Position numbers and translations under genes: made by a program
The notes under the pieces: model-generated
Databases searched by the model: none
What the model was told of the DNA's origin: nothing
The model's input: only the letters and a program-made list of their open reading frames with translations
In this document: positions 15,585 through 39,305 of the stretch, piece by piece
Numbering within the stretch: the stretch's first letter is position 1
Layout of the letters: every line of letters starts with the position of its first letter
Assembly: GCA_009746045.1 (NCBI GenBank)
Contig: RPFO01000026.1
Span: 3,040,676-3,104,675 of the forward strand
Direction: 5' to 3'
Length of the DNA: 64,000 nt
Source: Mesostigma viride
Taxonomy: Eukaryota; Streptophyta; Mesostigmatophyceae; Mesostigmatales; Mesostigmataceae

Positions 15585-15748
15585 CCGGCATTGATAATCA
15601 AAAGCTGCTAGCAGGCCAAGGACTTCAAAAGTGGCAATAGATCGATGTAGGTCGTCGATAAACTTGTCTAGTCGTCATATTTCGGTCGCAAAATTCGTGC
15701 GTGGCCTGCAGGCATCGGACAAAGTGCACGCAACAGCAGGAGTCGGTT

Positions 15749-17619
15749 TGTCACGGACGCGAGCTATGTCATCCGGGCGCCCACTATGCACAATACCGGT
15801 GACGTGCGCAAGGAATTTTTTTTCTGCGCATTTTCGACAAAGGCTAGTGCCCGGGGGGGGGACACTAGCACTTGCAGCATAAGAGCGGACGAAAGTGCAC
15901 GTGCGCGCGCGCCGGGCCAGGCACGGCTAGGCGCGCAGCACTGACGTACTTGAGCGGACGGCAGCACAAGTGCGCAGCGTCGAGAGGATCATACGCGAGT
16001 TAGTGGACAGCTGGAGCTGGAGCTGGAAATCCCGTTTCGTTCAAGTGGCCAGCCGGAGCGGCTGCTTAGGTTTTAGCGGGCAAGTGTTCGAAGCGCGTCA
16101 TTGGTGAATTACTCGGGAACTTGGGTTTCCCCGCGAAACTCCAACCGCACGTTCAGATTTCCAAATCTCAAGTAAAGTTCGGCGCAACTTTCTGAACGGG
16201 GGCAGTTGACGAGCAGCATTCCTCCGGACGAATGAATTGCGTTCCATACTTGCGCAAAATTTTGAAAGGTAGCTTGCGTGCAGCCCTACTAAAATTTGCG
16301 CGCACGTTCAGATTTCCAAATCTCAAGTAAATTTCGGCGGAACATTCTGAACGGGGGTAGTTGGCGGGCAGCGTTCATCCAGACGAATGAAATGCGTTCC
16401 ATACTAGCGCAAAATTTTGAAAGGTAGCTTGCGTGCAGCCCTACTAAAATTTGCGCAAAGTGTGGGACTGAAAATTCGTAACGGAAACTTTTTGGTAGTT
16501 GCCGTCACTTCCTCTTGTGCAAACGTGTGGGAGTGAAAATTCGTAACGGAAACTTTTTGGTAGTTGCCGTCACTTCATTTTGCGCGAGTGTTGGGCTGAA
16601 AATTCGTAACGGAAACTTTTTGGTAGTTGCCGTCACTTCCTTTGGTTCGACTGAAAATTCGCTGAAATTCGCTGAATTCGTACCGTAGCCTAATTTTTAG
16701 TACCTCGAAGTGACGGGGCACCTAAAAATTCGCCCACAAGTACACTTGGCAGCGCGCTCACTGGGAAAAATTGTACAGCCGCTCCGGCGGGCCACTTGAA
16801 CGAATTGTAATTGATAGCGGGTCAACGTTATGAGGACTGGACAGAAAATGGAAAAGGACAATTTGCGGTGCGGAGCCAGATCGCTGGAATGAATGCGAAA
16901 TCGCTGGCAGCCCTACAAAGGGATTTCTTCTAGAAAGGAAAGATTAGAAGCAATGTTTGCTGGGCCACTCACACGCAAGGTGTGAGCGTGCAGATTGTTT
17001 GAAGGATATTATGCTTCGACCTTGGTGGTCGTGACTAAATGCCGGACATTCCCAGGGACAGAAATGCCGGAGCCTCTAGGAGACGAGATCGGCAACAGGG
17101 TAGCAATTTAGATTTGTCGGGATGCCTTCCTGTTTTTGTTGGCATGTGTGGTAGTAAGCCAGGACGGCAACTGGAATGCGGTTTCTGTTTGCATGGTTCA
17201 GGCAGCAAGATAGTTTTGGCATTCCTGGCTGGACTGACAAGTGTGGCGTGTGTCATGCGTGTGGCATGACGAATGGTTTGGTTCATAGTCGAAGAGGACT
17301 CTCACGTAGCGTGTAGTCTCTTCGAGTCTCTCATTAGTGGCCTTCGTGTTTCTCCCTTTCCTTGGGAGCAAGGCCGGTAGCATGTCATGGAGCGCTGCCT
17401 AACTGCGGGCTCGTGAGCATGGAGTGCATCGATATTGAGACTATCAACGTGTTGTAATTGTATTAACTTTCTCAATAAATTCCGCATGTGCGGCTTCATC
17501 ATCAGACTGTGCAAAGTGTGTGTTGTGAAAGCATTATTCTGTAGCAGGGGAGGAAATAAGGTGGTCATCAGGCACGAGGGACAGTTCCTTGTCCTCGGCT
17601 GAGAGCCCTCCTTACGTTA
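15749..17619 (+). repeat. left LTR of the gypsy-methyltransferase element
   Basis: Matches the right LTR before and after an insertion at 16036-16804. Around the insertion about 75 bp of the right LTR (following the AGCTGG repeats) is missing. The LTR ends at CTTACGTTA, where the two copies stop matching. It contains AATAAA at about 17473, a possible polyadenylation signal. Confidence 0.85.
16036..16804. mobile_element. 0.77-kb TIR element inside the left LTR
   Basis: Inverted ends of about 29 bp with core GTTCAAGTGGCC and GCCGGAGCGGCTG at 16036-16064, repeated inverted at 16777-16804. It is absent from the right LTR. Inside are two tandem units of 155 bp (starting about 16147 and 16302) and three units of about 64 bp (about 16460, 16525, 16588) with GAAAATTCGTAACGGAAAC. 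No coding capacity. No clear target duplication, probably because of the adjacent deletion. Confidence 0.8.
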
Positions 17620-17882
17620 CTCGAAGAGACTACCCGGTAGTCTGCTTCCTTCTGTTCGAAGCCAAGACGTTGGCTTTAGTGTTTATCAACCATCAGCAGT
17701 ACAGGGAACGGCCTGGCTGACAGTTTGTAAAGGAAGTGTCTTGAGACAGATTTCAAGAAAATAGAACTAGCCAGAATTGCTGGCTCTTGTCTTTTTCTGG
17801 CAGGCTAACCTAGGCTTGTTGGTTCTTGTTTTGCCCATCGGTCAGCTGGTGCATGCCACTGACGCGAGCGCAGACTCGAGCC
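17620..17882 (+). other. 5' leader of the gypsy-methyltransferase element
   Basis: The sequence between the LTR end and the first gag ATG at 17883. An imperfect palindrome (AGACTACCCGGTAGTCT) lies near the start at about 17627. I could not choose a primer-binding site with confidence. Confidence 0.5.
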
Positions 17883-19550
17883 ATGGCGGATGCAAATAGA
17901 GCAGATGCCAACACGTCCGCTCCGGGGTCGAATGGCGGGATTCCTCCCGCCGTACCCGCAGTGGGTGAGAGTCGCGACCAAGAAGCGCCGCTGAGTATGG
18001 TGGCGCTGTTCGCGCAGATGCAAGCGCAGATGCAGCAACAGTCGCAACAGTTGCAGCAGCAACTGGCGCTGCAATGCGGGAAGTGACCGACAGATTGGTG
18101 GCCGTAGAGGGTCGTCATCTGCAGTCCACACCATGGGACGGGCAGGCATCGATGCCGGGCCCAATGGTGTTGCCGCGGAGCCGAGGGAGCGGGACCAGCC
18201 GCCAACCTCAGGTAATGCGGCGGGAAGGGCTCCGATGGAACCGGGGGTTTTGGCTGGGTCGCTAACCCAACACGACTTGCTTGGTGAGGCGGATGGTCAG
18301 CCACGGGGCGAGTATACGCTGGCGCCCAGGCGCCTGCCTTTCGATCAAGCGCGAGACGGATTGCACGAGGAGAACGGGGCAGGGCTGGCGCGCGCGATGG
18401 ACCCACGCAGGGGTGCACCAGGACGCATGCTGCCAGGCGGGGTCTCAATTCCGTTTGGGCGAGGCGGTGGGGCGCTGACCGGCGGGTCGACTGCACGGTG
18501 GTCAAGTGTGCCAATCGGGCGCATTCCGCCCATGGAGGACATAACCACGCCGCTGGCTTTCCGAGTACGGGAGGCAGCACGCCCAAGCACGCTGGCGCAG
18601 GGACGCGCAGCTCAGCGACCGCCGGAGGATGCCGATGGGGTGCAGTACCCGCAAAGGGTGCGCCTCATACCTGAAGGCGCGAAGATGCCCACCCTACCAC
18701 GGGTGGACATGCGCGAGAAGTTCTCCACAACCGGCAATCTGGCCACGCTGGCGCAGGCCTACAACGCGTACAAGTCATGGATTGATCTGCAATACATGAC
18801 TACGCAAGGCGCTGTAATGCATGAGTTTGTGATGAACAACATGCATTTCTTCTTTCACGGCCTTACGCTGAGGCGAGTGGCTAGGCTGGTGGAGCAGTGG
18901 AGAGAGGTCTCGCTGTACACGCGTCACACGGACGTGTGGTTCGGCTTCGACGGGCGTGGCCAGCCCGACTATGACAACATCATGTATGGTGTCGACCCTG
19001 CCGAGGAACTGTGGGGCCTCCTTCGCCAGGAATACCCGGTGGAGACCATCAAGGCAGAGCGTGAGTGGCGCAGTTTCAAGATAGCCGAGGGTGAAACCCC
19101 GGAGCAATCTTACGAGCGCCTCATGGAGTTCGCCGGCGAAGTGGAGGACTGGTCCGAAAAGCTGGCGTGTCAGAAATGGCTGCAAGCGCTAGGCTCCAAG
19201 GAGATGGAGCTGCCCACGCCGCCCAACGGCCAGCCGTGGCGATTGCGGTCACTGTGCATTGAGGTCAGGGCCATGATGCGACGACACGCGCAAGGCCGGA
19301 TCTCGGTAAGCACGGTGGTGGCCGAGCTGCAGGCCAAGGTCGACGCGCTGACCAAGGCCAAGTCGGGTGAGTCGTCTGCCACAAGACAAGCGCGCCCGCA
19401 AGGCGGCCACGGTGCTAGCAGGAACCAAGGGGGGTCTCGCAACGCCTCATCGCATGATGCAACCCAGGGTAACGCCGCTGGCGGCAACAAGGACGCTGCC
19501 GCTCCGCCGACGCGAGCTGGGGGGGCACGTCCTCACAGACGGGTAGGACG
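17883..19550 (+). pseudogene. gag (capsid) of the gypsy-methyltransferase element
   Basis: ATG at 17883 begins a Gln-rich coiled-coil-like start (MQQQSQQLQQQLALQ). The frame then changes near 18072 and again between 18130 and 18200. The rest (to about 19550) runs in one frame. It contains a proline/glycine-rich linker and then a Retrotrans_gag-like helical capsid region (about 18700-19300), with WRSFKIAEGETPEQSYERLM and LACQKWLQALG. It ends in a Gly/Arg/Asn-rich tail before the zinc knuckle. The frame changes point to indels in this copy. Confidence 0.7.
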
Positions 19551-19829
19551 GATGCGCGCAAATCGGGCTGCTTCCTGTGCGGTCAGGATGGGCACATCAA
19601 ACGTGATTGTCCCAAGGCGTGTAAGAAGTCACACCCGGCAACGGTCCGCACCCATCTGGCGGGGCAGTGCCCAGCGCCGGGGGTGCACTTTGCGGACGTG
19701 GAGGACAAGAAGGTGGACGCGGGGGTGGTCATCATTCAGCCGACGGGCGAGGCGGGGGGCGTGAAAGGGAGGATGGGGGATCGCAGGTTCAATACAGGGA
19801 CGAGGACTTCTGGCGGCCAGCCGACGTGA
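19551..19829 (+). pseudogene. gag zinc knuckle segment
   Basis: In a third frame relative to the capsid, CFLCGQDGHIKRDC at 19569-19610 is a textbook CX2CX4HX4C nucleic-acid-binding knuckle. It is followed by a second Cys/His set and an acidic stretch, with a stop at about 19827. It connects capsid and protease and shows where another one-base change occurred. Confidence 0.75.
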
Positions 19830-21250
19830 TGGCGTTGGACATCCACGCAGTTGGCGCGCGAGGGAAGCAAGCACGTGCACCACCGTCGTTTCAGGTGGGG
19901 CAGCCAAGTGAGACTGTGGGGCAGTTGCCTCAGTCCTTTCGCATGGCTCCCGCTCGGACCGGCTCCACCCTGGAACACGACAATCCTGCTGGGGCAGAGC
20001 AGCGGCGCAGGTTGTTGCCATTATACCCTATGCCGTCGGTCGTGGACACGCCTGCATACACTCCCCGGCAAGTGGTCGAGTGGTTCGGTCAGCGGGCCGT
20101 GGAGGTGCTCGGGTCGCATGCGTCAGAGGTACAGCGGTACGCTGACACAATGGACGCCCGTAGGTTGCACAACGCTGAGACAGCCACATTTGTCGGGCAT
20201 CGCCCTGCATCGGCTTCGGTAATCGTGGGTCATGTCGCTCATGGTGTCTTGGACAACGCGCAGCGGGCGTGCGTAGTGCCTAGGGCACCCACTGTCACCT
20301 CATATCCGGATGGCGAGCCAGCAATGGCGTTTCAGGCGCAGGGGCACGGGGAGCCCCTGAGCAACGTGGTCTACAGTACTGACCATGAATTGGTCGTGAA
20401 ACTGGACAGCGGGGCCCAGCCACTCGTTATCAGTGCTCGGCTGGCCCAGTTGCTCAACCTAACCAGGGAGAATGGCGGGCTGCGGGACAGTCATGTGTCC
20501 GTGGCGGGCTGGCAGGGCCCTGCCGCTAAACCCTTTGCCATGACTGCGGTCCAGGTAATGGTCATCCTCAACCCGCTCAGGCCATCCGACATGGCCTGCA
20601 TCCCTGTGAATGCCCTTGTGACCGAGCAGTCATCGTATGACGTGCTGGTCGGCATGGAGGTCATGTTTCCCATGCGGCTCGAGGTACGCATGTGGGAAGG
20701 CCGCGCGGTGTACATCGTTGACAGAGACGGTGACGCCATGCGCCAAGCAAGCATCCCGGTGAGCTGCTACAGCTCGGACACTGGGGCAGTGCGTGTCTCG
20801 ACGGTCAACCGGGTCGAGGCTGGCTCGCACGACGCGGTGGTGGAGGTACGGATGGGGGAGGTCACGGCAGCTGGGGGGGCTGTGCGTGATAAGCATCGGC
20901 CGTGCATCCCAACAGCGCTGGTGGGACGGGCCTCATTGCAGAGCACGTGGGCGGCGCGACAGCAGCCGCAAGCGCGGCAGGCCCTTTTGCGTCAGCACGT
21001 CACCAACGCGGTGCGGCAGCAACAACTCTCTCATCTCCCGCGGCAATCGCAGTCCCAAGTGGCTGTCGCGACAACGAAGGTAACTTCTGTGCCGATGTTG
21101 TGGCAGAGTCGCGGGTCTTGTCCGAGGGGTTGTATTGCTAGAATTGTTTGCTGGGATGGGAGGGGGGCTGGCTGGCTTTCTCGCTGCAGGCGGTACGTGC
21201 CACACGTTGATCGCCGTAGAGCCGTCTCCTACCGCTCGGGCAGTGTATAG
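19667..21250 (+). pseudogene. pol aspartic protease region
   Basis: This frame is meaningful from about 19790. The retropepsin motif VVKLDSGAQPLVIS lies at about 20393-20434, and the flap/second half ends in YDVLVGMEVMFP (about 20638-20674). The frame probably leaves this protein near 21100, because the downstream methyltransferase frame opens at 21084. The last 50 or so codons here are then out-of-frame. It would process the Gag-Pol polyprotein. Confidence 0.7.
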
Positions 21251-22538
21251 GCATCACTGTGCCCAGCTGTCTGCCCTGTATCCATCTCAGTTCCCTCCGT
21301 CTGCGTGGACAGATCCGTTTGGGGAGTGCCCTCAGGATATCCGTGCTATTGGGGAGGTTCATGTGCGAGGCCTTTTGAGGCGGCACAAGAGGATAGACCT
21401 CGTCCTCGCGGGCTGGGAATGTCAAGGGTTGAGTCAGGCCGGCGTAGGACGCGGGCTTGCGGATCCTAGGAGCGGGTTGTTTTGGGATCTGCTTCGAGTC
21501 GTTGGACTCTTGCAGCAGCTGCAGGACCAGCCACTAGCGTATCTTTTTGAGAACGTGGTGGCCGACGACAGCCCTCACGAGGTAGTGAGGAAGGACTGGG
21601 CCCAGATCGTGGACATCTTAGGGGCACCAGTCACGTGCGACAATGCAGGATTGGGCGGGCTCACCCACAGGTACCGCGCATTCTGGACCAACCTTGCACT
21701 CACCACCACCATCCAGGCAGTGGTAGATGCGATCACACGACAGCACGACGGCATGCCCGCGGAGGTGGCGCTGCCACCACATTTGGTCACGCAGCGGGTA
21801 GACGTCGCCGATCGGCACCCTTACGCGCCCGTCAATCACGTAGGTAAGCCTATGTGCGCTCTTCCCACCTTGGTTAGTTACCAGGGGTCATCGGCCTACA
21901 GGGACCGGGGCAAGGGTTTGGTATGGGACACCGGTACGGGTTTGTTGGTGCAGCCGCCCGCTGAGTTTCGGGAGGTGAGCATGGGGTTCCATGTGGGGGC
22001 GTCCGCCGCTGAGGGGGTTTTAGAGGCCACTAGGTGGTCTCTCGTTGGGCAAGCCATGTCAGCCTTCCAGGTTGGGTATGTTCTGCGGGCCGCAATGCAA
22101 GTGCGCCAGGGTGGGGGAGATATCCCCACACCGCCACCGCCTGTCAGTGCCCACGCGGCTGGTGTCCGGCCAACAGCGTCCGGCGGCACTGGGTCGCCAT
22201 GGAGATCGCGGCTGCTTCAACTATGGAGCGTTATCCTCATGACGTCCTTGTTGTCCAGCACGGTGTTCGCTGGAGCGCCCACCCTGCAGCAATCGGTCGG
22301 TCGCGCAGTCCGTGCCATTCAGCAGGTGAGCGTCACACCCGGTGTAGCCGCATTTTCCCTTTTCCACGATGCCGCTGTCCGGGGGCCTTGTCTCGACAGT
22401 AGGAGTGCCGCAGTCGCAGATCCTGCTGCCTCTCACATATGGGCCATAGGTGAGCACCTCACCGCCACGCAACGCAAGGCTATGGAGCACTGGTTGCATT
22501 CTGCACGCTCAGTTTCGCTTTCAGCAGTGAAGAACTAG
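21084..22538 (+). CDS. C5 cytosine DNA methyltransferase domain carried by the retrotransposon
   Basis: A complete-looking catalytic domain of about 325 residues between protease and RT. Motif I is LELFAGMGGGLAGF (from 21138). The catalytic loop is AGWECQGLS, Cys codon at 21420, with Glu in place of the usual Pro. DPRSGLFWDL is motif V-like. FENV is motif VI. THRYRAFWTN is motif VIII. Also present are a short target-recognition region, REVSMGF and LVGQAMSAFQVGYVL (motifs IX-X). No ATG at the start; the frame opens after a TAA at 21081, so it was most likely read as part of Pol. The C-terminal 60 or so residues (HLTATQRKAMEHWLHS) are the normal start of a gypsy RT, so the enzyme was fused in-frame to RT. 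Predicted reaction: SAM-dependent 5-methylation of cytosine. Confidence 0.85.
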   Translation, partial: LLCRCCGRVAGLVRGVVLLELFAGMGGGLAGFLAAGGTCHTLIAVEPSPTARAVYRHHCAQLSALYPSQFPPSAWTDPFGECPQDIRAIGEVHVRGLLRRHKRIDLVLAGWECQGLSQAGVGRGLADPRSGLFWDLLRVVGLLQQLQDQPLAYLFENVVADDSPHEVVRKDWAQIVDILGAPVTCDNAGLGGLTHRYRAFWTNLALTTTIQAVVDAITRQHDGMPAEVALPPHLVTQRVDVADRHPYAPVNHVGKPMCALPTLVSYQGSSAYRDRGKGLVWDTGTGLLVQPPAEFREVSMGFHVGASAAEGVLEATRWSLVGQAMSAFQVGYVLRAAMQVRQGGGDIPTPPPPVSAHAAGVRPTASGGTGSPWRSRLLQLWSVILMTSLLSSTVFAGAPTLQQSVGRAVRAIQQVSVTPGVAAFSLFHDAAVRGPCLDSRSAAVADPAASHIWAIGEHLTATQRKAMEHWLHSARSVSLSAVKN

Positions 22539-24268
22539 GGTGCTACAACGGGGGCTGCATGGGGGTCCCACTAGATACGGATCAGCCCTTATTCAGGCGG
22601 CAGCATAGGCTGAGCTTGGCTGAGCTGGAATTCGTAGATGCTAACTGTCGAGAGCTAGAGGCAGCTGGGATCATCCGCGCTTCATCCTCCAGTTATGCAG
22701 CTGCCACGGTGGTCGCACCCAAGAAGGATACCATCACAGGCGAGTGGACAGGTATGCGCATGGCCACTGACCTGCGTCAGCTGAACGCGCACACTCCTGT
22801 TGATAGGTACCCCATGCCTCGGGTCGATGATGTTTTGGATAAAATATCTCCCCAGGTCAAGTATGTGTCGTCGCTAGATTTGCGTAGCGGCTTCCATCAG
22901 ATCAAGGTCGTAGAGGCAGATCAGCGCAAGCTGGCCTTTTGGGGTGGGACCCGTCTGTACGAGTGGGTTCGCATGCCATTCGGACATCGCAACGCTAGTG
23001 CGGTGTTCCAACGTGCCATGGACCAGGTGCTGGCAGGGTTGCCATTTGCAGCCTGCTACATAGACGATGTCATTGTCTTTAGCGAGACATTTGACCAGCA
23101 CTTAGCTCACCTCGATCAGGTTCGGATCGCCCTAGATAAGGCCAACCTGCGGCTGCACCCTGAAAAGTGCAAGTTCGCCCAACAGACCATAGGGTTTCTT
23201 GGTCATCAGATTGTACCAGGTGGCCGGACCCCTGAGGCAGCCAAAGTGGAAGCCATCAGCAACGCCGCAGTGCCCATCGACATCTCGGGGGTGCGCGCGT
23301 ATCTCGGGCTAGCTGGCTATTATCGAGGATATATTCAGAATTTCAGCACCAAAGTCAAACCCCTGACTGAGTTGTTGAAGAAGGGCAATGTCTGGGCGTG
23401 GGGTCCGGCTCAGCAGCGAGCCATCGATACCATCAAACAGGAACTGACTGCCGCTCCTATCCTACGCGCCCCCGACTATGCTCTGCCCTTCATTCTTTAC
23501 ACCGATTGGTCCAAGGTAGGCCTAGGGGCTGTGCTAGCACAAAAGGACGATGCGGGGCGCGAGCATGTTATCGCGTACGCTAGTCGGAGTAACAACTCTG
23601 CCGAGAGTCGGTACTCTTCCTACGAGGGGGAAGCGTTAGCCGTTGTGTGGGCCATCAAGCACTTCAGGCCATATCTCTTTGGGCGGGTGTTCACACTTGT
23701 CACTGATCACCAGCCCTTATTGTGGTTGATGACCAGCGACAAACTCACGGGTAAGCTGGCCCGGTGGGCAATGATCATTCAGGAGTACCACCTGACAATC
23801 GTCCATCGGCCAGGTGTGGATCACTCCAACGCGGACGTCCTGTCCAGGTATGCTCTACCAACCACTGTTGACAACACTGGTGCGCGGGCCCTAGGGGCCG
23901 AGAGCTCGCCTGGGTCTGTGGTTTTTGTTAATGCTGCAGGCTTCGCTGACGCCGACGCCGAGGCAGACTGGCGCGCAGTCGAGTATACAGTCGCAGACTT
24001 TGCGGCAAGCTGCAATGCAGTTCACCCTTCTCCCTTCACCCCTGCCGCTGGCCTCCTCGCGTTGGAGGAAGGTAATTCTCCGTCCTTTGACATTGACAAT
24101 ACCTTGGCACGATACCTAGCACTCCAGGTGGTGTTGGTTGGCCATCTCACAGTGGAATGCAACATGGGTGATGTGTGGCTCGATGGGCGTGTGTTGGAGC
24201 AGGTCCAAGGGATAGCTCTCACCCCACCCCGGTTGATTGGTCCTCAGCCCAGCGTGACGCTGAGTTGA
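22454..24268 (+). pseudogene. pol reverse transcriptase and RNase H
   Basis: The RT finger start (FAFSSEELGCYNGG at about 22514) follows in a frame one base off the methyltransferase frame, so an indel lies near 22505. RT motifs are SSLDLRSGFHQIKV (about 22868), MPFGHRNASAVFQ (about 22974) and CYIDDVIVFS (about 23056). RNase H is shown by ILYTDWSKVGLGAVLAQ (about 23494) and LVTDHQPLLWL, in Ty3/gypsy order. The frame closes at 24268, after a slip near 24230 where the integrase frame takes over. Confidence 0.88.
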
Positions 24269-25702
24269 ATAGGGTGCAACATAGGGCGGTCACCTACTCG
24301 TGGGATGCCGGGGTCCTCCACAAAATGATCGGCAAGCGCAAAGTGGTGGTGCCGCCGCCTCACAAGCGGGTCGCCATCGTCCAGCAAGCCCATGAGCGGT
24401 ATGGCCACCTGGGTGGTAACCGCACTTTGGCGCTAGTGCGCGCCTCTTATTGGTGGAACGGCATGCGTGCCACAGTCGCGCAGGTCGTCGCTAGCTGCGC
24501 GCAGTGTGCCCGGGTGAAGGCCCGGTTCAATGTGGACCACGATGCGAAAGAATTGATGAGCCTACCCATCAGAGGGCTCTTCTACCGCTGGCACGTAGAC
24601 CTGTGTGGGCCCTTTGATGAAAGTGCAGATGGCCACAAGTATGTCATGGTGTGTGTCGAAAGTTTTAGCAAGTGGGTCGAGCTCATCCCCATTGCTGACA
24701 AGCAGGCCGCCACCACCGCCAAGCACTTCGCCGACATCATCGCCAGGTTTGGCGCCCCCGCGGAGGTGGTCACCGACCAGGGCGGGGAGTTTCGGGGGAA
24801 TTTCAGGAATTGTTGGATGCATGTCTCATTGATCACCGTCGCACTTCTCGGAGCATCCTCAGGCCAATGGTTTGGCTGAGAGATTGGTGCAGACTGTCAA
24901 GCAGGCTTTGCGCAAGTGGAGCCTGCAGTCAGCATCATTCACTATGTGGGATCGTGAACTGGCGTGGATAGCCATGGGTTACCGAATGTCACCCCAGGAG
25001 TCGCTCGCCTGTTTCTCCCCGTATTTCCTGTTGTTTGGGCGCGCACCCTTGCTCCCCACGGAGGCGCAGAGTGCACACCCCACCCCTATGGCGTTTGACA
25101 ACGCCAGTCAGTTTCTGGCTGAGGTGACCGCACGGGCGGCTACTTTCCGCAAGGTTATGCCCATCGCCATGAACAACTTGTTCATCGCCCAGCACCGAGA
25201 TACCCTGCGCTACGCTCAGCGCCGGGGGGGCGCTTACATGGCCCGTCAGCTGCATTTTCGTCCGGGGCAGTTCGTATTTCTCCGCACGCAGCTGACCGAC
25301 ACTCTTGACGTGACTGCGGGGCCGACCATCTTGCGGATCGTCGCCATCAAGCCATCTGGGGTCGCCATTTTGGAGGGCGTCGACGGCAGTCGCACCACCG
25401 ATAACGTAAGCAACCTCAGTCCGTGTTCGTTGCCCAACTTATTGCCTGACCTCGCCCCGCACACGGCCAGGCGGGTCAAGGACGCACAGTGTCAGGTTTG
25501 CCATCGCGTAGACCAGGGGGATACCATGTTGCTGTGTGATCACTGTAATTGTGGGTGGCACATGCACTGCTTGCAGCCAGCGCTCACCACCGTGCCAGCG
25601 GGCCAGTGGTTTTGCCCAGTTTGTGTCGCTGCCCGTTTCGCAACCAGTAGCGTCACCATTTCCTTAGCTGCTGTGGTGTTGGCACGGTCGCTGGCCATGT
25701 GA
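24230..25702 (+). pseudogene. pol integrase with C-terminal PHD finger
   Basis: An HHCC zinc domain (HERYGHLGG ... CAQCAR, about 24390-24515) is followed by the DDE core: WHVDLCGPF (about 24591), VVTDQGGEF (about 24769) and HPQANGLAERLVQ with the Glu near 24878. The frame changes twice between about 24800 and 24853. After the core comes a GPY/F-like beta region, then a C4HC3 PHD finger at about 25498-25635: CQVC, LLCDHC, WHMHC and WFCPVC. A PHD finger takes the place usually held by a chromodomain. It ends TGA at 25702 after a hydrophobic tail. Confidence 0.82.
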
Positions 25703-25728
25703 GGAGCCATGAGAGCCAGCGAGGGGGG

Positions 25729-25870
25729 AATCATGGGACAGGTCCTCGCCCACCCCACCGGGCATGCAGTTAAGGCAGGCACGTCAGCTCAGCTCATTTG
25801 GGTTTTACCAAAGCTGAGCATGGCCAGCCGCCATGGTGGCGCCGGAGATTGTGGTACGCAGACGCGACAG
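25729..25870 (+). repeat. 142-bp repeat R, copy 1 (before the right LTR)
   Basis: AATCATGGGACAGGTCC through CAGACGCGACAG, repeated almost unchanged at 27027-27168. It directly follows the polypurine stretch of the gypsy element. The polypurine tract normally touches the 3' LTR, so R may be the true start of the LTR, lost or absent from the left copy. Confidence 0.85.
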
Positions 25871-25871
25871 C

Positions 25872-27027
25872 TGTCACGGACGCGAGCTATGTCATCCGGG
25901 CGCCCACTATGCACAATACCGGTGACGTGCGCAAGGAATTTGTTTTCTGCGCATTTTCGACAAAGGCTAGTGACCGGGGGGGGGACACTAGCACTTGCAG
26001 CATAAGAGCGGACGAAAGTGCACGTGCGCGCGCGCCGGGCCAGGCACGGCTGGGCGCGCAGCACTGACGTACTTGAGCGGACGGCAGCACAAGTGCGCAG
26101 CGTCGAGAGGATCATACGCGAGTTAGTGGACAGCTGGAGCTGGAGCTGGAGCTGGAGCTGGACTGCTGGACTTCAACAGCGCCGAGGCTATTGACAGGCC
26201 AGGTGTCTTTGTGGTGTAGAATAGCGGGTCAACGTTATGAGGACTGGACAGAAAATGGAAAAGGACAATTTGCGGTGCGGAGCCAGATCGCTGGAATGAA
26301 TGCGAAATCGCTGGCAGCCCTACAAAGGGATTTCTTCTAGAAAGGAAAGATTAGAAGCAATGTTTGCTGGGCCACTCACACGCAAGGTGTGAGCGTGCAG
26401 ATTGTTTGAAGGATATTATGCTTCGACCTTGGTGGTCGTGACTAAATGCCGGACATTCCCAGGGACAGAAATGCCGGAGCCTCTAGGAGACGAGATCGGC
26501 AACAGGGTAGCAATTTAGATTTGTCGGGATGCCTTCCTGTTTTTGTTGGCATGTGTGGTAGTAAGCCAGGACGGCAAACTGGAATGCGGTTTCTGTTTGC
26601 ATGGTTCAGGCAGCAAGATAGTTTTGGCATTCCTGGCTGGACTGACAAGTGTGGCGTGTGTCATGCGTGTGGCATGACGAATGGTTTGGTTCATAGTCGA
26701 AGAGGACTCTCACGTAGCGTGTAGTCTCTTCGAGTCTCTCATTAGTGGCCTTCGTGTTTCTCCCTTTCCTTGGGAGCAAGGCCGGTAGCATGTCATGGAG
26801 CGCTGCCTAACTGCGGGCTCATGAGCATGGAGTGCATCGATATTGAGACTATCAACGTGTTGTAATTGTATTAACTTTCTCAATAAATTCCGCATGTGCG
26901 GCTTCATCATCAGACTGTGCAAAGTGTGTGTTGTGAAAGCATTATTCTGTAGCAGGGGAGGCAATAAGGTGGTCATCAGGCACGAGGGACAGTTCCTTGT
27001 CCTCGGCTGAGAGCCCTCCTTACGTTA
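25872..27027 (+). repeat. right LTR of the gypsy-methyltransferase element
   Basis: Matches the left LTR except for the TIR element inserted there and a 75-bp segment (about 26146-26220) present only here. Near-identical elsewhere. Ends TACGTTA, then runs straight into repeat R copy 2. Confidence 0.85.
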
Positions 27028-27168
27028 ATCATGGGACAGGTCCTCGCCCACCCCACCGGGCATGCAGTTAAGGCAGGCACGTCAGCTCAGCTCATTTGGG
27101 TTTTACCAAAGCTGAGCATGGCCAGCCGCCATGGTGGCGCCGGAGATTGTGGTACGCAGACGCGACAG
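27027..27168 (+). repeat. 142-bp repeat R, copy 2 (after the right LTR)
   Basis: Second copy of 25729-25870. After CGCGACAG the sequence departs (GTTGAGTTCGAAGC) and no LTR follows. Confidence 0.85.
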
Positions 27169-27336
27169 GTTGAGTTCGAAGCACGGCAGACAAAAAATTT
27201 CGGCGCAAAGTCCGTCCGGCGAAAAATTCGCTCGGCTGCCAAATTTTCGGCAAGAATTTCGGCGCAATGTCCGGTTTTCGGACGATTGAAATTAGCGTTT
27301 TTTCTTGCAAAAATCTACCCCATTCCGCGTGGGACC
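27169..27336. other. flank before copia element A
   Basis: No gene. AAATTTTCGG-type motifs repeat here. The last five bases, GGACC (27332-27336), are the left target duplication of element A. Confidence 0.6.
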
Positions 27337-28060: not shown

Positions 28061-30379
28061 TCACGGGTGTTGCATCGTCATGCGCTTGCGCAACACTGCG
28101 TACTGCGGGGCAGCCTCCCGCGCCTCCTTGGTGAGTGCATCCGCGGGATTGAGTTCATCCGCGATGTGCTGGAGACGCGTGACGCAGGAGGCCGCCTCAG
28201 CGAGTACGAGGTAATCAACGTCCTGTGACCGCGCATAGGGATTGTCAAGGAAGGCCAAACAACTTTGTGAGTCAGTGTGCACCGTGCTAGTCCAGTGAAG
28301 AGTGAACCCACACGAGCCAAATACCCAACCCAGCAAGTACCGCAGCCACATGCCATGTGAGATAGCTGAAACAATGCCCCGGCATTCAGCCGTGTTGGGG
28401 CTAGTGGCAATGCGGCTGTGCAAGCGCGAGTACCAATCTAACAACATGCCAGGCTGTCCCTCATTGCTAATAAAGAACAGTGCCCCCATGCGGGCCCGCA
28501 CTTGGCTGACTGTGCGCGTCTCTAGATTAGCATCCGTCACTATCTCGAGGTGCACCGGCTGTGAGCAATCGAGCCCACGAAGCACAATGCCGGGCGTCAT
28601 GGCCAGCTGCCGCCGAACATGAATGGACCCTAGTCCTTCCAGCACATCATCGGGCAGGCGAGCGAGCACCGCCAAATCAGGTGCCACCGTGTCCGCCAAC
28701 CACCCGAGCTTGCCCTTAACCGAGGGCCCATGGGTTGCCAACAGCGGGGACGGGAGGTCGGCCAGCAGGTCAACCACATAGTTGCGGCTATCCTGCATGT
28801 GCATGACCCATTCGCCAGAACGCGAATCCCGCTGCAACGTAGACTGCACGCCGCAAAACACCACGGGTTTACCCTCCTCATGATCCACCGCCCTGCCCAG
28901 GGGAAACTTAGCCGCCACTGCAGCAAGAAACTGGGTAGCAAAGGTGCGAGGTGCCACCAGCTTGAAGTCATCGCCATGCCACACGAAGAGGGCTGGCTCG
29001 CCAGGGACGCCGGTGGGGACCACAAAGAAGTTAGGATCCGCGCGATGGTACGTGGCCCCTAAGCTCTGCAAGACCTCCTCCGCGGAAATGCGGAAGATGA
29101 TGGGAGAGCTCTGCAGCCCCTCCACCCCTGTCAACAGCTCGATATACTCGCTGCCAATGGTGCCATCCTGCCAGACCACCGGGACCTTCACCACGTAGCG
29201 GGTGCCTTGCCATGTTTGCTGCGCGACCCCAGCGTCGCTGTGGAGGAATGCCCGCTGAAAGTCACCGCACCACATCCCGTAGTCCTTGCCCGCGTTCCGC
29301 TTGCCCAAGTAGATGACCGTCAGTAGCCGATGCGAAACATGGTTGAGCCCAGGGGTATAAAGATCCTTGGCGTCCAGCGGGGAGGACCCCTTCGTCTCCG
29401 TGACCACGGGCCTTACCCGGAACACCACCGAAGAGTTGGTCTCGTCCGGCTTGTAGGTGAGCACGAACTTCAACCGCAACCGCGTGGCCCCGGCTGGCAC
29501 ACTCTCCAATCCTCGGTAGACCTCGCGCTCTCGCCACTGCTCCTTGGCTCGAATGAACGCGTCGCGCCACAAAGCAAACTTGAGAGGATCTTGACAGTCC
29601 AGGACAAGTTGCTCCCACGTCACAGGGCTATCCGCCGCCAGTGAGTGTGAGTGGAGGCCGAAGCTGCGCGGGTGCCAATCCTGAGGCTGAATGATGGACT
29701 GGACGAGCGGCGGTGTGGAAAACGCCGCCATCGGTAAGCGCCGCACGACGCCGGGCTGCCCGACCACCACCCCCAATGGAGCGTGGTACTCGCGAAGCGG
29801 GATGCTGCCCACCCCCGCGACTGACAGCAAGTCAGCGGACACTGAGAACCCCGGGTATGATACGAAAGGTTCGCCCAGCAAGGCCACATCCTCGTAGCCA
29901 TCCACGACGTGAAACGGCGTGTCAATGCCCAACACCGGCAGCACCACCATCCCGGTAACTTGATATGCCGAAGTGCCTGCAAAGTCGGTCACCGATTTGT
30001 ACGGCGACTCTAGCACTGGATACAGGGTGGCTGCCCGACGAGAGATAATAGACACGGATGCTTGCGTGTCCACAGCCACCAGCTGCCACGGTCTACACGT
30101 AGGAAACAAGGCTGACTTAACCGGCCTGACCCCCTGTGAGAGAGTTTTGACCTGAGCCACCCCTGATGCAGCTTTCGCTTTAAGCGCCTGAGCACGCCAC
30201 AAGGCCGTGACCGTTGAAGCCAGGTCCCTAGGTGGGCGAGGCGCATGGGCAGGACCCTGACCCTCCGGCGAGGCCACGCTAGGCGGGCCTCCCACATTAT
30301 CCGTGGCTAGCACAGGAGGTGAGTCACTACGTGCACTAGGTCCCGTCAAACCCACCCCATCCTCATCCCACCCATCCAC
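28061..30379 (-). CDS. copia A ORF2: protease, reverse transcriptase, RNase H
   Basis: 772 codons from ATG at 30379, overlapping ORF1 by 34 bases in the -1 frame. A retropepsin-like fold comes first: VAVDTQASVSIIS (DTQ at about 30062-30070), then a G-x-V-LPVLGI strand and ALLGEPF. RT follows with MWCGDFQRAFLHSD (motif A) and FVWHGDD (motif C, HGDD instead of YVDD). RNase H has LEIVTDANLETR, VHTDSQS and NPADALTK. Open throughout. In ordinary copia elements protease precedes integrase; here it follows integrase, and Gly of DTG is Gln. Confidence 0.85.
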   Translation of the reverse strand: MDGWDEDGVGLTGPSARSDSPPVLATDNVGGPPSVASPEGQGPAHAPRPPRDLASTVTALWRAQALKAKAASGVAQVKTLSQGVRPVKSALFPTCRPWQLVAVDTQASVSIISRRAATLYPVLESPYKSVTDFAGTSAYQVTGMVVLPVLGIDTPFHVVDGYEDVALLGEPFVSYPGFSVSADLLSVAGVGSIPLREYHAPLGVVVGQPGVVRRLPMAAFSTPPLVQSIIQPQDWHPRSFGLHSHSLAADSPVTWEQLVLDCQDPLKFALWRDAFIRAKEQWREREVYRGLESVPAGATRLRLKFVLTYKPDETNSSVVFRVRPVVTETKGSSPLDAKDLYTPGLNHVSHRLLTVIYLGKRNAGKDYGMWCGDFQRAFLHSDAGVAQQTWQGTRYVVKVPVVWQDGTIGSEYIELLTGVEGLQSSPIIFRISAEEVLQSLGATYHRADPNFFVVPTGVPGEPALFVWHGDDFKLVAPRTFATQFLAAVAAKFPLGRAVDHEEGKPVVFCGVQSTLQRDSRSGEWVMHMQDSRNYVVDLLADLPSPLLATHGPSVKGKLGWLADTVAPDLAVLARLPDDVLEGLGSIHVRRQLAMTPGIVLRGLDCSQPVHLEIVTDANLETRTVSQVRARMGALFFISNEGQPGMLLDWYSRLHSRIATSPNTAECRGIVSAISHGMWLRYLLGWVFGSCGFTLHWTSTVHTDSQSCLAFLDNPYARSQDVDYLVLAEAASCVTRLQHIADELNPADALTKEAREAAPQYAVLRKRMTMQHP

Positions 30380-33128
30380 GGGGTCATATTGGGGCCCAGG
30401 GGAGGGGGGGGTGTAGCTGTGTCTGCCCCTGGGAGCGACCCGTGGGGTACCACCTCAGATGCTACGACAGGCGCATTATCCTTCACTACCCACCCCAGTG
30501 CCCTGTTGGCTGCCAGCTCACTCTCCATGCTATCCCCTTGCTTATAGCCTGCCACCGATGCCCATGGTACCCTATACACCCGATCATTCCACTCTATGTC
30601 TATGACCCGCAGCGGCCAGTCTAACTTTGTGATGGCCCCAGGCCCCTGCATGGTGCCCCGTTTGCCGCTGGGCGAGCTCTCCTTGTGGAACATGACCAAC
30701 TGCCCGACCTCAAAAGCGCTAGACAAATCAGGCAGCGTGGCATCCTTGAGCCGCAGCTTGGCGGCGGTATCCTGTAGATGCTGTTGGTATGCCTCTACTA
30801 CCTCGGGTGAGTAGGTGCCCGCTGACAGCCCCCGAGGCGTGACTAGCCCAAAGCCCTTGACATCAAGCACGTGCCTATGGTTGCACACATGCATGAGCTC
30901 CTTGCACCACGCCGTCTTGACCGCGTAGGATTTGCCATGTGGGTTATCCTGTCGCTTGGCTGCCACAGTCTTGACATAGCTTACAGTGCGATCTATCATG
31001 CCCATATTGCCGTGATCCTCACGCCCCACGATGACCACGGCCTCCATCCCCGGCAAACCTTGCACACAGCGGAACTGCTGGTCTAGCATGAGCTCCACTA
31101 CGGGATGAAAGAAAGCCAGGCTGATCTTGATAGCCCTGTGCAGGTCAGCCTCAACATGTGGGGCAGCGGCTCAATGTAGGTGGCCTTGCTGAACCTATCC
31201 TTGACTATGAAATAGGTGTCCCCCCCTTCCATGTGCATGACATCCCCCACAAGGTACCCTCGCTCCAAGGGTGGAGTCTTGGCATGCCGCCTACGCGACT
31301 TCTTCCTGATCTTGATGCAGGCAGGACACTGAGCACGCACATTCTTCAGCTCGTTGTATAAAGGTGCCCCCAACATGTGTGCCCCCTCTACCTCGGCTTG
31401 GGCCTCATGCCCGTATGCACGGTGCATCTGGTATGCTAACAGTTTCAGGGTGACAGCCTGAGGTGCAGTGGCATTGTCAGGATTCTCAACAGGTGGGGTG
31501 ACTACTGGGGTAGTGACATTGGCTAACTGGGCAGCTTCAGAGGCTGCACGAAAGGCCGCCCGTGTGAGCACCTTGCCAATGTGAAGATCCACACTAGGGT
31601 GGTGTGTACCGAGAACATCTGCCCGCCCAGCATTCTCTTGCACTGTCACAACATTCCTCATAGGCCCAACCGCCCCAGTATCTAGCTGGGGTGCTGCAGT
31701 AGTGCTTGGTCGCTCGGCGTTGTACACACCCGACCTAGAAGACACCACATTGCTTAGGTCACGCATTGTAGACCCGTGCTCAGGAAGCACGTGATCCTGG
31801 CGCGACAGAGCCAGAGCAGCATCAACGGATTGCGTGAGCACATCACGGAATGAGACAGAGGATGCAGTCACGTTGCTTTTAGGAACGACGTCAGGCTCTA
31901 CGACGGCCCGGTTCAGCGTGACGCATTGAGCAAAAGAAGGGGTATCGAGCGTGCTCTCACCTGACTTTCGTGCTGCCCGTCGCTCTGCCCACTCCTCGCG
32001 TGTGCCGTGGACGACGATGCGCTTGGCCTTGCACGCCTCCACGCTGTGACCACGCAGAACGTCGTGGCACTTGCGGCAAAGGTTGTCCTCGAGCTCCAGG
32101 TCCGGGCGAACTCGGCAGTCATCCCGGACATGGCGACGTCCGAAGCAGCGCTCACAGCGTTGCTTGCGGTCAGTAGACGCCCCCTGCTGCCGCTTGGCCG
32201 GGGGATTATCACCCTGCTTGGCGTCGCCACCATGCCCGCGCTTGCGCCCTCGCTGGCCCCCGTTGTTGCCGTGGCCGACGACCTTTTTCAGGATGGCCGT
32301 AAGCTCCGACCGCGTAATTGGAGCCTCTGCGCCTGAAGAAGAAGACGCGCCGGTATCCACCTTGCGCAGGGATGGCAGAGCAGCCGAGGCAGCCGGCTTG
32401 GACTGCGCACTCTTGAAGCATGAGATCAAATACAGCATGCCCTCGTCGAAACTGACGGCACTCTTCTTTTTGAGTTCCGTCGCTATGGTCAGATGCACAT
32501 CCGACGAGAGGTCGCATTTCTTGAGAAATCGATTGCACAGGAAAATGGGCTTGAGAGTATCTAGCAGCTTGTGCTTGTGCACGAAGACCTGGAAATCACG
32601 TGCAGCCCCGGGCAAATTTGCCTTATTAACTGCATAGCCCTCGAAGTCATTGAAGGCTTGCTCGTCGGCCTCTTCCTTAGACCGCGACAAGTGGGCATCT
32701 AGACCGTTGTAAAAAACTTCCCAGGTTTGTTTGTTGTCGTCCGCAATGCGAACTAGATTGGCAATGTTTGGGTGCTTTGTTGTACTGCAGAATACTGCAC
32801 GGAACTTGCCAATCAGCTCCGAATCTTTGTCTGCGCGTCCATCGCGCAGACGCTTGAGAGCAGCTAGAAAATCTGCTGCGTCGTCCGCCGTATAGTCGGC
32901 AGGTAGATCAGCGGGCACCTCCGTTTGCTTGAGAGGGCCGCGATTCAGTGCATCGTCAGCAGCAAGCATCAGATGCTTGAACTGCTTGGCCAGTTCAGGT
33001 TGCGCCACGAGGGTTTGCATCAACCTCGTGGCCTCGTCCGCACTAAAGCGTGGCAGGACGGTCCCTGCGGCCTCGCCACTTGGCGTATCTGTGTGTTCGC
33101 CCGTGCGGCTCCGTGTACCGGAAGCCAT
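30346..33128 (-). pseudogene. copia A ORF1: Gag and integrase, one frameshift
   Basis: The ATG at 33128 lies only 20 bases from the 5' LTR. A Gag helical region is followed by a zinc knuckle CERCFGRRHVRDDC and a second Cys set (CRKCHDVL). Integrase has HRAYGHEA...CPACIK (HHCC), a GDVMHMEGG core start, LMLDQQF, and GREDHGNMGMIDR, where the usual third-site Glu appears as Asp. A single A missing near 31155, compared with element B, moves the frame, so this copy is read in two pieces (33128-31098 and about 31158-30346). The C-terminal part has a GDQV-like beta domain. Confidence 0.85.
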
Positions 33129-34333: not shown

Positions 34334-36706
34334 TCACGGGTGTTGCATCGTCATGCGCTTGCGCAACATGCACTGCGTACTGCGGGGCAGCCTCCCGCGC
34401 CTCCTTGGTGAGGGCATCCGCGGGATTGAGTTCATCCGCGATGTGCTGGAGACGCGTGACGCAGGAGGCCGCCTCAGCGAGTACGAGGTAATCAACGTCC
34501 TGTGACCGCGCATAGGGATTGTCAAGGAAGGCCAAACAACTTTGTGAGTCAGTGTACACCGTGCTATAGCCAAATTCACTTTGATTCCCTCTTGCATTAG
34601 CTAGTCCAGTGAAGAGTGAACCCACACGAGCCAAATACCCAACCCAGCAAGTACCGCAGCCACATGCCATGATGTCAGATAGCTGAAACAATGCCCCGGC
34701 ATTCAGCCGTGTTGGGGCTAGTGGCAATGCGGCTGTGCAAGCGCGAGTACCAATCTAACAACATGCCAGGCTGTCCCTCATTGCTAATAAAGAACAGTGC
34801 CCCCATGCGGGCCCGCACTTGGCTGACTGTGCGCGTCTCTAGATTAGCATCCGTCACTATCTCGAGGTGCACCGGCTGTGAGCAATCGAGCCCACGAAGC
34901 ACAATGCCGGGCGTCATGGCCAGCTGCCGCCGAACATGAATGGACCCTAGTCCTTCCAGCACATCATCGGGCAGGCGAGCGAGCACTGCCAAATCAGGTG
35001 CCACCGTGTCCGCCAACCACCCGAGCTTGCCCTTAACCGAGGGCCCATGGGTCGCCAACAGCGGGGACGGGAGGTCGGCCAGCAGGTCAACCACATAGTT
35101 GCGGCTATCCTGCATATGTGCATGACCCATTTGCCAGAACGCGAACCCCGCTGCAACGTAGACTGCACGCCGCAAAACACCACGGGTTTACAGTACCCTC
35201 CTCATGATCCACCGCCCTGCCCAGGGGAAACTTAGCCGCCACTGCAGCAAGAAACTGGGTAGCAAAGGTGCGAGGTGCCACCAGCTTGAAGTCATCGCCA
35301 TGCCACACGAAGAGAGCTGGCTCGCCAGGGACGCCGGTGGGGACCACAAAGAAGTTAGGATCCGCGCGATGGTACGTGGCCCCTAAGCTCTGCAAGACCT
35401 CCTCCGCGGAAATGCGGAAGATGATGGGAGAGCTCTGCAGCCCCTCCACCCCTGTCAACAGCTCGATATACTCGCTGCCAATGGTGCCATCCTGCCAGAC
35501 CACCGGGACCTTCACCACGTAGCGGGTGCCTTGCCATGTTTGCGGCGCGACCCCAGCGTCGCTGTGGAGGAATGCCCGCTGAAAGTCACCGCACCACATC
35601 CCGTAGTCCTTGCCCGCGTTCCGCTTGCCCAAGTAGATGACCGTCAGTAGCCGATGCGAAACATGGTTGAGCCCAGGGGTATAAAGATCCTTGGCGTCCA
35701 GCGGGGAGGACCCCTTCGTCTCCGTGACCACGGGCCTTACCCGGAACACCACCGAAGAGTTGGTCTCGTCCGGCTTGTAGGTGAGCACGAACTTCAACCG
35801 CAACCGCGTGGCCCGGCCGGCTGGCACACTCTCCAATCCTCGGTAGACCTCGCGCTCTCGCCACTGCTCCTTGGCTCGAATGAACGCGTCGCGCCACAAA
35901 GCAAACTTGAGAGGATCTTGACAGTCCAGGACAAGTTGCTCCCACGTCACAGGGCTATCCGCCGCCAGTGAGTGAGAGTGGAGGCCGAAGCTGCGCGGGT
36001 GCCAATCCTGAGGCTGAATGATGGACTGGACGAGCGGGGGTGTGGAAAACGCCGCCATCGGTAAGCGCCGCACGACGCCGGGCTGCCCTACCACCACCCC
36101 CAATGGAGCGTGGTACTCGCGAAGCGGGATGCTGCCCACCCCCGCGACCGACAGCAAGTCAGTGGACACTGTGAACCCCGGGTATGATACGAAAGGTTCG
36201 CCCAGCAAGGCCACATCCTCGTAGCCATCCACGACGTGAAACGGCGTGTCAATGCCCAACACCGGCAGCACCACCATCCCGGTAACTTGATATGCCGAAG
36301 TGCCTGCAAAGTCGGTCACCGATTTGTACGGCGACTCTAGCACTGGATACAGGGTGGCTGCCCGACGAGAGATAATAGACACGGATGCTTGCGTGTCCAC
36401 AGCCACCAGCTGCCACGGTCTACACGTAGGAAACAAGGCTGACTTAACCGGCCTGACCCCCTGTGAGAGAGTTTTGACCTGAGCCACCCCTGATGCAGCT
36501 TTCGCTTTAAGCGCCTGAGCACGCCACAAGGCCGTGACCGTTGAAGCCAGGTCCCTAGGTGGGCGAGGCGCATGGGCAGGACCCTGACCCTCCGGCGAGG
36601 CCACGCTAGGCGGGCCTCCCACATTATCCGTGGCTAGCACAGGAGGTGAGTCACTACGTGCACTAGGTCCCGTCAAACCCACCCCATCCTCATCCCACCC
36701 ATCCAC
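34334..36706 (-). pseudogene. copia B ORF2: protease, RT, RNase H, disrupted
   Basis: Same order and motifs as A (DTQ at about 36389-36397; HGDD; RNase H). It is open from 36706 to about 35200, then broken by short insertions near 35191 (+5), 35114 (+2), 34672 (+3), 34567 (+37) and 34367 (+4). An extra in-frame triplet lies near 35813. Cannot make full RT-RNase H. Confidence 0.85.
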
Positions 36707-38842
36707 GGGGTCATATTGGGGCCCAGGGGAGGGGGGGGTGTAGCTGTGTCTGCCCCTGGGAGCGACCCGTGGGGTACCACCTCAGATGCTACGACAGGCG
36801 CATTATCCTTCACTACCCACCCCAGTGCCCTGTTGGCTGCCAGCTCACTCTCCATGCCATCCCCTTGCTTATAGCCTGCCACCGATGCCCATGGAACCCT
36901 ATACACCCGATCATTCCACTCTATGTCTATGACCCGCAGCGGCCAGTCTAACTTTGTGATGGCCCCAGGCCCCTGCATGGTGCCCCGTTTGCCGCTGGGC
37001 GAGCTCTCCTTGTGGAACATGACCAACTGCCCGACCTCAAAAGCGCTAGACAAATCAGGCAGCGTGGCATCCTTGAGCCGCAGCTTGGCGGCGGTATCCT
37101 GTAGATGCTGTTGGTATGCCTCTACTACCTCGGGTGAGGAGGTGCCCGCTGACAGCCCCCGAGGCGTGACTAGCCCAAAGCCCTTGACATCGAGCACGTG
37201 CCTATGGTTGCACACATGCATGAGCTCCTTGCACCACGCCGTCTTGACCGCGTAGGATTTGCCATGTGGGTTATCCTGTCGCTTGGCTGCCACAGTCTTG
37301 ACATAGCTTACAGTGCGATCTATCATGCCCATATTGCCGTGATCCTCACGCCCCACGATGACCACGGCCTCCATCCCCGGCAAACCTTGCACACAGCGGA
37401 ACTGCTGGTCTAGCATGAGCTCCACTACGGGATGAAAGAAAGCCAGGCTGATCTTGATAGCCCTGTGCAGGTCAGCCTCAAACATGTGGGGCAGCGGCTC
37501 AATGTAGGTGACCTTGCTGAACCTATCCTTGACTATGAAATAGGTGTCCCCCCCTTCCATGTGCATGACATCCCCCACAAGGTACCCTCGCTCCAAGGGT
37601 GGAGTCTTGGCATGCCGCCTACGCGACTTCTTCCTGATCTTGATGCAGGCAGGACACTGAGCACGCACATTCTTCAGCTCGTTGTATAAAGGTGCCCCCA
37701 ACATGTGTGCCCCCTCTACCTCGGCTTGGGCCTCATGCCCGTATGCACGGTGCATCTGGTATGCTAACAGTTTCAGGGTGACAGCCTGAGGTGCAGTGGC
37801 ATTGTCAGGATTCTCAACAGGTGGGGTGACTACTGGGGTAGTGACATTGGCTAACTGGGCAGCTTCAGAAGCTGCACGAAAGGCGGCCCGTGTGAGCACC
37901 TTGCCAATGTGAAGATCCACACTAGGGTGGTGTGTACCGAGAACATCTGCCCGCCCAGCATTCTCTTGCACTGTCACAACATTCCTCATAGGCCCAACCG
38001 CCCCAGTATCTAGCTGGGGTGCTGCAGTAGTGCTTGGTCGCTCGGCGTTGTACACACCCGACCTAGAAGACACCACCTTGCTTAGGTCACGCATTGTAGA
38101 CCCGTGCTCAGGAAGCACGTGATCCTGGCGCGACAGAGCCAGAGCAGCATCAACGGATTGCGTGAGCACATCACGGAATGAGACAGAGGATGCAGTCACG
38201 TTGCTTTTAGGAACGACGTCAGGCTCTACGACGGCCCGGTTCAGCGTGACGCATTGAGCAAAAGAAGGGGTATCGAGCGTGCTCTCACCTGACTTTCGTG
38301 CTGCCCGTCGCTCTGCCCACTCCTCGCGTGTGCCGTGGACGACGATGCGCTTGGCCTTGCACGCCTCCACGCTGTGACCACGCAGAACGTCGTGGCACTT
38401 GCGGCAAAGGTTGTCCTCGAGCTCCAGGTCCGGGCGAACTCGGCAGTCATCCCGGACATGGCGACGTCCGAAGCAGCGCTCACAGCGTTGCTTGCGGTCA
38501 GTAGACGCCCCCTGCTGCCGCTTGGCCGGGGGATTATCACCCTGCTTGGCGTCGCCACCATGCCCGCGCTTGCGCCCGCGCTGGCCCCCGTTGTTGCCGT
38601 GGCCGACGACCTTTTTCAGGATGGCCGTAAGCTCCGACCGCGTAATTGGAACCTCTGCGCCTGAAGAAGAAGACGCGCCGGTATCCACCTTGCGCAGGGA
38701 TGGCAGAGCGGCCGAGGCAGTCGGCTTAATTGGACTGCGCACTCTTGAAGCAGGAGATCAAATACAGCATGCCCTCGTCGAAACTGACAGCACTCTTCTT
38801 TTTGAGTTCCGTCGCTATGGTCAGATGCACATCCGACGACAG
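36673..38842 (-). pseudogene. copia B ORF1, 3' part: zinc knuckle and integrase
   Basis: Open for 689 codons (38742-36673), including the zinc knuckle, HHCC and complete integrase. It shows what A lost by its one-base deletion. The third catalytic site is again Asp (GMIDR). A +4 insertion near 38728-38731 breaks the frame just upstream, and element C interrupts Gag at 38848. ORF2 starts 34 bases inside the end of this frame. Confidence 0.85.
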
Positions 38843-38847
38843 GTCGC

Positions 38848-39305
38848 AGTTGGATGGAGACTAGGGACGACGAACAACTGCTGAGGCTGAAAGCGAATGA
38901 TGATTGTATTAGCAAGAATACAATGAGAGAGCAATGGAAGCTGAGGGCTCAGAATGGAACGTCTGGGCAAACTCGGGTGCTGCGGCACTCCCCAGTGCTA
39001 CGCCTATATGCCTATGGCGGTGCTACCTGCAGCACCTCACCAGTGGACAACTGTACACTGCAATGCCATGCGACCACGTCACTAGCATCGACTACACTCG
39101 GCCCGTCCAGAACCGGATAACCCGGGTCTGGCGGGTCGAGCTAGAGTCTAGGCACAGTCTGGCACTAACCGCACATCGGTCCACATGACACCTCAGTACC
39201 GTACACCCTGCCGTACTGTACTGAGGTGTCCCGCTCAGCCGCGGTAGGCAATACGCGGCGCGCAGGCCGGAAATCCGTGTGTCAGCCTAAGCATCTCATC
39301 TAACT
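38848..39305 (-). repeat. 3' LTR of copia C
   Basis: 458 bp; starts AGTTGGATGGAGACTAGG on the plus strand and ends ATCTCATCTAACT. It matches 46851-47308 apart from small indels near the TTAGCAAGAATAC segment. Confidence 0.9.

Follow-up and report, generated by a model that had tools for sequence, protein, structure and literature searches.

Split terminal repeats, a DNA methyltransferase and a PHD finger in a Ty3/gypsy-type retrotransposon of Mesostigma viride, with a probable joined-end route of integration

The element, its features and its relatives

We analysed a stretch of 64,000 nucleotides from Mesostigma viride (GenBank assembly GCA_009746045.1, contig RPFO01000026.1, positions 3,040,676 to 3,104,675 of the forward strand; hereafter the window), which contains a retrotransposon whose Pol region carries a C5 cytosine methyltransferase (MTase) and a PHD finger. 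The original prediction had confined this element to 19667-25702, which proved too short: self-comparison of the window together with inspection of the sequence gave bounds of 15749-27167, with a 4-bp target duplication (GGTT) on both flanks. Pfam profiles matched, in this order, a protease (weakly), the C5 MTase, reverse transcriptase (RT; RVT_1, E = 3.6e-28), RNase H (RT_RNaseH, 1e-38), integrase (Integrase_H2C2, 4.5e-18; rve, 3e-10) and PHD, and thus confirmed the predicted MTase ahead of RT (DNA_methylase, 2.9e-11, in the frame 21084-22538) and PHD finger after integrase (1.9e-9). RT-RNase H followed by H2C2/DDE integrase, the Ty3/gypsy order, was found both in the window element and in the open reading frame (ORF) of a sister family, and Ty3 was the best solved relative of the RT (3.3e-62). 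The outer ends are not the identical long terminal repeats (LTRs) of a Ty3/gypsy element; they consist of two repeats, B and A. The window element is one frame-broken copy of Ty3/gypsy type, from a large group that has been active recently, and has the following features.

15745-15748, unstranded: target duplication GGTT, left copy (sequence)
15749-17619, +: repeat B1, 5' end, starts TGTC; holds an inserted stretch at about 16028-16813 (self-comparison, sequence)
17313-17326, +: 14 nt in B1, exact complement of the primer site (sequence)
17620-17633, +: putative primer binding site for self-priming, CTCGAAGAGACTAC, directly 3' of B1 (sequence)
17995-19764, +: Gag-like frame (ORF list)
19569-19610, +: CCHC knuckle CFLCGQDGHIKRDC, in a different frame from the Gag-like frame (translation)
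19625-21250, +: frame holding an aspartyl protease domain, 20384-20662 (Pfam E 5.2e-4, below cut-off)
20873-20879, +: G7 run, matching the place of the ORF1/ORF2 overlap (G9) in the sister family
21129-22112, +: C5 cytosine MTase domain; catalytic-type Cys codon at 21420-21422 (Pfam, phrog_363)
22718-23788, +: RT and RNase H (Pfam; Ty3 structure match)
24352-25470, +: integrase with H2C2, DDE core and C-terminal region, in more than one frame in the window copy (Pfam)
25490-25624, +: PHD finger (Pfam E 1.9e-9; BAZ2B PHD 3.4e-15)
25719-25729, +: polypurine tract (sequence; equivalent place in sister copies)
25730-25869, +: repeat A1, GACA end (self-comparison, sequence)
25866-25875, unstranded: palindrome GACA-gc-TGTC, proposed integrase cut site (also in sister copies and C111)
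25872-27027, +: repeat B2 (self-comparison, sequence)
27028-27167, +: repeat A2, GACA end; its border with B2 would be a fossil circle joint (self-comparison, sequence)
27168-27171, unstranded: target duplication GGTT, right copy (sequence)

The insert at 16028-16813 in B1 has 15-bp inverted ends and tandem repeats inside. Rfam and tRNA scans gave no matches.

Relatives were sought in the genome (440 Mb, 2243 contigs). A Pfam MTase search gave at least 127 matches (123 of 415 candidates scored), and 20 copies (c01-c20) of a sister family, with about 71% DNA identity to the window element over the aligned parts, were fetched from this match list by frame length and place. A search with the integrase-PHD part (135 matches scored, 2370 candidates) yielded 35 matches that were 97-100% identical, the window family; the remaining 100 were about 82% identical, 27 of them with a 2074-aa frame. 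Part of one such copy, C111, was read and proved open over 900 aa from MTase to RT and again over the integrase end and PHD.

Terminal architecture, joints and priming

The layout B-internal-A-gc-B-A was found in the window and in c01, c03, c04, c06, c10, c11, c14, c16 and c20 (c04 and c20 without the 5' end, c01 and c16 with a cut last A), and we have very little doubt that it is real. The final B-A was absent from c05, c09, c15, c19 and c02, which read B-internal-A (c02 without its 5' end); the stretches of c07, c12, c13, c17 and c18 held no A, and that of c08 neither repeat. All nine sister copies with both ends carried 4-bp target duplications at TGTC...GACA, and all nine duplications were different. 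A plain LTR reading, with LTRs at 15749-17619 and 25872-27027, was rejected, as it leaves the A repeats, the position of the polypurine tract and the right duplication unexplained. We think that this terminal architecture, which the original prediction had missed, is the stronger finding.

Since the primer site lies directly after B and the polypurine tract before A, reverse transcription should yield LTRs of the form A-gc-B. A census was taken by DNA search with A-gc-B-A. The best 40 of 149 candidates in the sister family comprised 11 A-gc-B-A, 8 B-A (one starting 17 nt inside A) and 21 B alone; the best 40 of 757 in the window family comprised 29 A-gc-B-A (the window itself included) and 11 B-A. 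The standard LTR, plain A-gc-B, was seen in 0/80 of these best-scoring matches from the two families, where a near-identical one would score above the lowest matches listed.

The joint between B and the final A took seven forms in nine sister copies, and the eight other joint-bearing copies were 99.3-99.9% identical to c03 outside the joint. Extra bases at the joint were either those with which the primer site begins (TC, TCCA) or a G run resembling the polypurine tract. In c20, A follows a B that is cut off at position 988; in c09, c10 and c15 the internal region is truncated and runs straight into A, at A positions 6, 2 and 5, respectively. By their sequence these joints look like 2-LTR circle junctions. 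End joining of cDNA can produce such joints, while a templated repeat hardly could.

The primer site was complementary in 14/14 nt to a stretch in B in two families whose sequences differ here, whereas control anchors elsewhere in the elements (1198 and 1152 anchors) reached at most 10 complementary nt. The complementary stretch lies 129 and 161 nt upstream of AATAAA in the two families. Such a self-complementary primer site of 14 nt suggests self-priming. LTR elements of the Tf1 type self-prime from their own transcript, and likewise have a primer site beside the LTR end that is complementary to the element's own sequence.

Methyltransferase and PHD finger in one open reading frame

A single open polyprotein had been predicted. 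In the window copy, Gag, zinc knuckle, protease, MTase, RT and two integrase parts stand in different frames; in relatives the part from MTase to PHD is indeed one ORF, and Gag-protease is a separate ORF in the sister family. An unbroken ORF of 1642 aa was present in 6/20 sister copies (c01-c06), each with MTase, RT and PHD by tblastn, and Pfam identified MTase, RT, RNase H, integrase and PHD in that of c03. The Gag-protease ORF lies upstream (up to 1081 aa), and the second ORF overlaps it in the -1 frame from a G9 run; the two may be joined by slippage, though this is guesswork. ORF1 is thus Gag-protease and ORF2 is MTase-RT-RNase H-integrase-PHD. The fusion from MTase to PHD, for which the original prediction had argued, is borne out by these ORFs and by purifying selection on both domains, and is as good as certain; independent copies speak against misassembly at its junctions.

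Given the homopolymer runs, sequencing error seemed at first the favoured explanation of the frame changes. For integrase, at least, it was rejected: among the 35 close matches (window included), 15 end in an identical 289-aa frame, so this break was inherited. We infer from the same count that broken copies multiplied, perhaps in trans.

The MTase domain is of full length, since phrog_363, a DNA methyltransferase family, covers its residues 14-341; its own frame had no stops over 328 codons and the other frames 16 and 8. In motif IV of C5 MTases, Pro usually precedes the catalytic Cys. The motif AGWECQGLS of the element holds a catalytic-type Cys, with Glu at the usual place of Pro. The nearest solved structure was DNMT3A (3.1e-6, from a two-sequence profile and over positions 70-192 only), followed by HhaI (1e-4); a fold predicted from the single sequence had a pLDDT of 37.6. 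No relative was confirmed in viral contigs, prokaryote genomes or plasmids, and a phage search gave one distant match, to a single phage that is present as two records. Separately, a Dcm-like C5 methyltransferase of 364 aa, unrelated to the element and perhaps viral, was found with equal score on ten mostly short contigs, and the MTase match at C58:51858 stands in a 3371-aa open frame, which exceeds sister ORF1 and ORF2 combined.

The PHD finger has the C4HC3 zinc-binding pattern as well as the profile match, and its nearest solved structure was BAZ2B (3.4e-15). Chromoviruses carry a chromatin-type domain directly after integrase; there it is a chromodomain, here a PHD finger, and Pfam matched no chromodomain in the integrase C-terminal frames of the window and of c03. 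Another repeat of the genome carries a PHD finger 51% identical to that of the element (one read, C1579:7107000-7107800), and its score was common to 143 of 150 scored PHD matches (1305 candidates).

Between window and sister element, amino-acid identity was 66% for MTase, 83% for RT-RNase H, 68% and 79% for the integrase parts, 74.5% for PHD and 45% for the protease stretch, with 67-88% of synonymous sites changed; between window and C111 it was 76% for MTase (284 aa) and 74% for PHD. The ratio of non-synonymous to synonymous divergence (dN/dS) of PHD against C111 was 0.13 (bootstrap 0.014-0.34); for MTase, synonymous divergence (dS) was saturated and the bootstrap range of 0.017-0.089 rests on capped dS. 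Because the amino-acid sequence was kept at saturated synonymous divergence, both domains are, by these comparisons, under purifying selection. Both MTase and PHD occurred in C111 and in the window and sister families, the MTase count among sister copies being biased, as these copies were found via their MTase. Copies without the PHD and with a clean junction would speak against the fusion. In 11 of the 20 sister copies the polypurine-tract end is preserved, and all 11 had PHD; c09, c10 and c15 are 3'-truncated and lost it together with RNase H and integrase parts, not alone, and the other six are cut short or were left aside.

The 3' end of the window element (25715-26264, mostly LTR) was 93% identical to C111 over 555 nt, while synonymous sites of Pol are near saturation; an exchange of ends between families is possible.

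Integration route, alternatives and known systems

We propose that the transcript would self-prime minus-strand DNA, that the linear cDNA A-B...A-B would be circularised by end joining, and that the DDE integrase would then cut the palindrome GACA-gc-TGTC (GACAGCTGTC) inside an LTR, with loss of the 2-nt spacer, and insert the product with TGTC...GACA ends and a 4-bp duplication. Integrases of HIV-1 (PMC1905944) and of a spumavirus (PMC1180852) are reported to cut palindromic 2-LTR junctions, the former in vitro. There, as proposed here, circular cDNA is cut by a DDE integrase at a palindromic site; in those viruses the site is the LTR-LTR junction itself, whereas here it would lie inside the LTR and the joint stay as a scar. 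We put the probability of this joined-end or circle route, as read from inserted sequences, at roughly 0.65, and likewise that of a DDE-integrase lineage that normally integrates from end-joined cDNA circles, keeps the joint as a scar and has MTase and PHD in one Pol ORF.

Several points weigh against this proposal. No circle was observed, the route being reconstructed from inserted copies, and joined linear concatemers would give identical products. Cutting in the other LTR, equally frequent if random, predicts B-A-B-internal-A, which was never seen: there was no A ahead of B1 in the 15 sister copies with intact 5' end (c17 and c18 share a flank), and the circle model therefore needs an extra rule. 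In the window family itself, no frame of ORF2 length was found among the 35 closest matches (longest 1415 aa). As to the domains, motif IV reads W-E-C rather than P-C, and in yeast no methylation was obtained with the Klebsormidium enzyme, a result its authors call inconclusive (PMC5890265).

The most speculative steps concern function. Judging from sequence, the MTase would most likely methylate the new cDNA of the element, and the PHD would dock integrase on histone H3 tails; retrotransposon Dnmt3s of Symbiodinium do methylate CG in yeast (PMC5890265). The whole chain including these putative functions is tentative and falls a little short of an even chance. It is an even bet that MTase and PHD are independent passengers without the putative joint role of writer plus reader; the PHD in another repeat family means that its capture need not accompany MTase, against which stands that both domains have persisted side by side in C111 and in the window and sister families.

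Alternatively, the split repeats could be templated, the layout passing from parent to daughter via RNA with cDNA ends unjoined. The constancy of the layout across families would fit, but the second A would have to be transcribed past the polyadenylation signal, and joints vary, some with primer-site bases, among copies 99.3-99.9% identical to c03, which makes this account quite unlikely. We consider it very improbable that a trans-acting tyrosine recombinase inserts the circle as in DIRS elements. Split repeats are the hallmark of that route, as stated for KnitGypsy-Dnmt3 (PMC5890265), and a weak tyrosine recombinase match lies in a frame at 52861-53463, outside the element; yet the 4-bp target duplications in 9/9 copies with both ends and the element's own H2C2 and DDE core speak against it, and tyrosine recombinase was absent from the Pfam matches of window and sister ORFs. 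That copies were inserted canonically and then rearranged one by one is barely credible: repeats recombine easily and solo B-A copies make up 8/40 (sister) and 11/40 (window family) of the best matches, but duplications stand at TGTC/GACA, not at A-B ends, and plain A-gc-B was absent from all 80.

A gypsy MTase and the split-repeat layout are already known in kind, because KnitGypsy-Dnmt3 of Klebsormidium nitens has been described (de Mendoza et al. 2018, PMC5890265), its repeat layout being 'the same as that of a DIRS retrotransposon'. By description, and not by sequence, it resembles the element here in its Gypsy domains, its MTase (Dnmt3-like there, possibly so here) in a Pol ORF under purifying selection and its DIRS-like repeat order. 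It differs in PHD: the words PHD and chromodomain are absent from the main text of that paper (PMC5890265), and the text available holds no analysis of joints or target duplications and no circle mechanism. SymbioDIRS-Dnmt3 also has a retrotransposon Dnmt3 and split repeats, but a tyrosine recombinase (PMC5890265), where the element here has a DDE integrase and target duplications; the DIRS combination of tyrosine recombinase and no target duplication is thus not that of this element. The combination of MTase and PHD in such an element was not found in the literature searched by title and start of abstract, in which most subscription journals were not covered.

Two-LTR circles are mostly regarded as dead ends in retroviral replication. 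The genomic record here suggests that it is joined cDNA ends on which the integrase works, and opens an old debate to testing in a natural system. With MTase and PHD encoded in the same Pol ORF, the element would further offer a direct experimental handle on the relation of mobile element and host chromatin.

Elsewhere in the window, two 4.2-kb copies at 28286-32516 and 34600-38848 are 98.9% identical, with Copia-like frames nearby, and a 30-bp minisatellite of about 39 copies occupies 1-1177.

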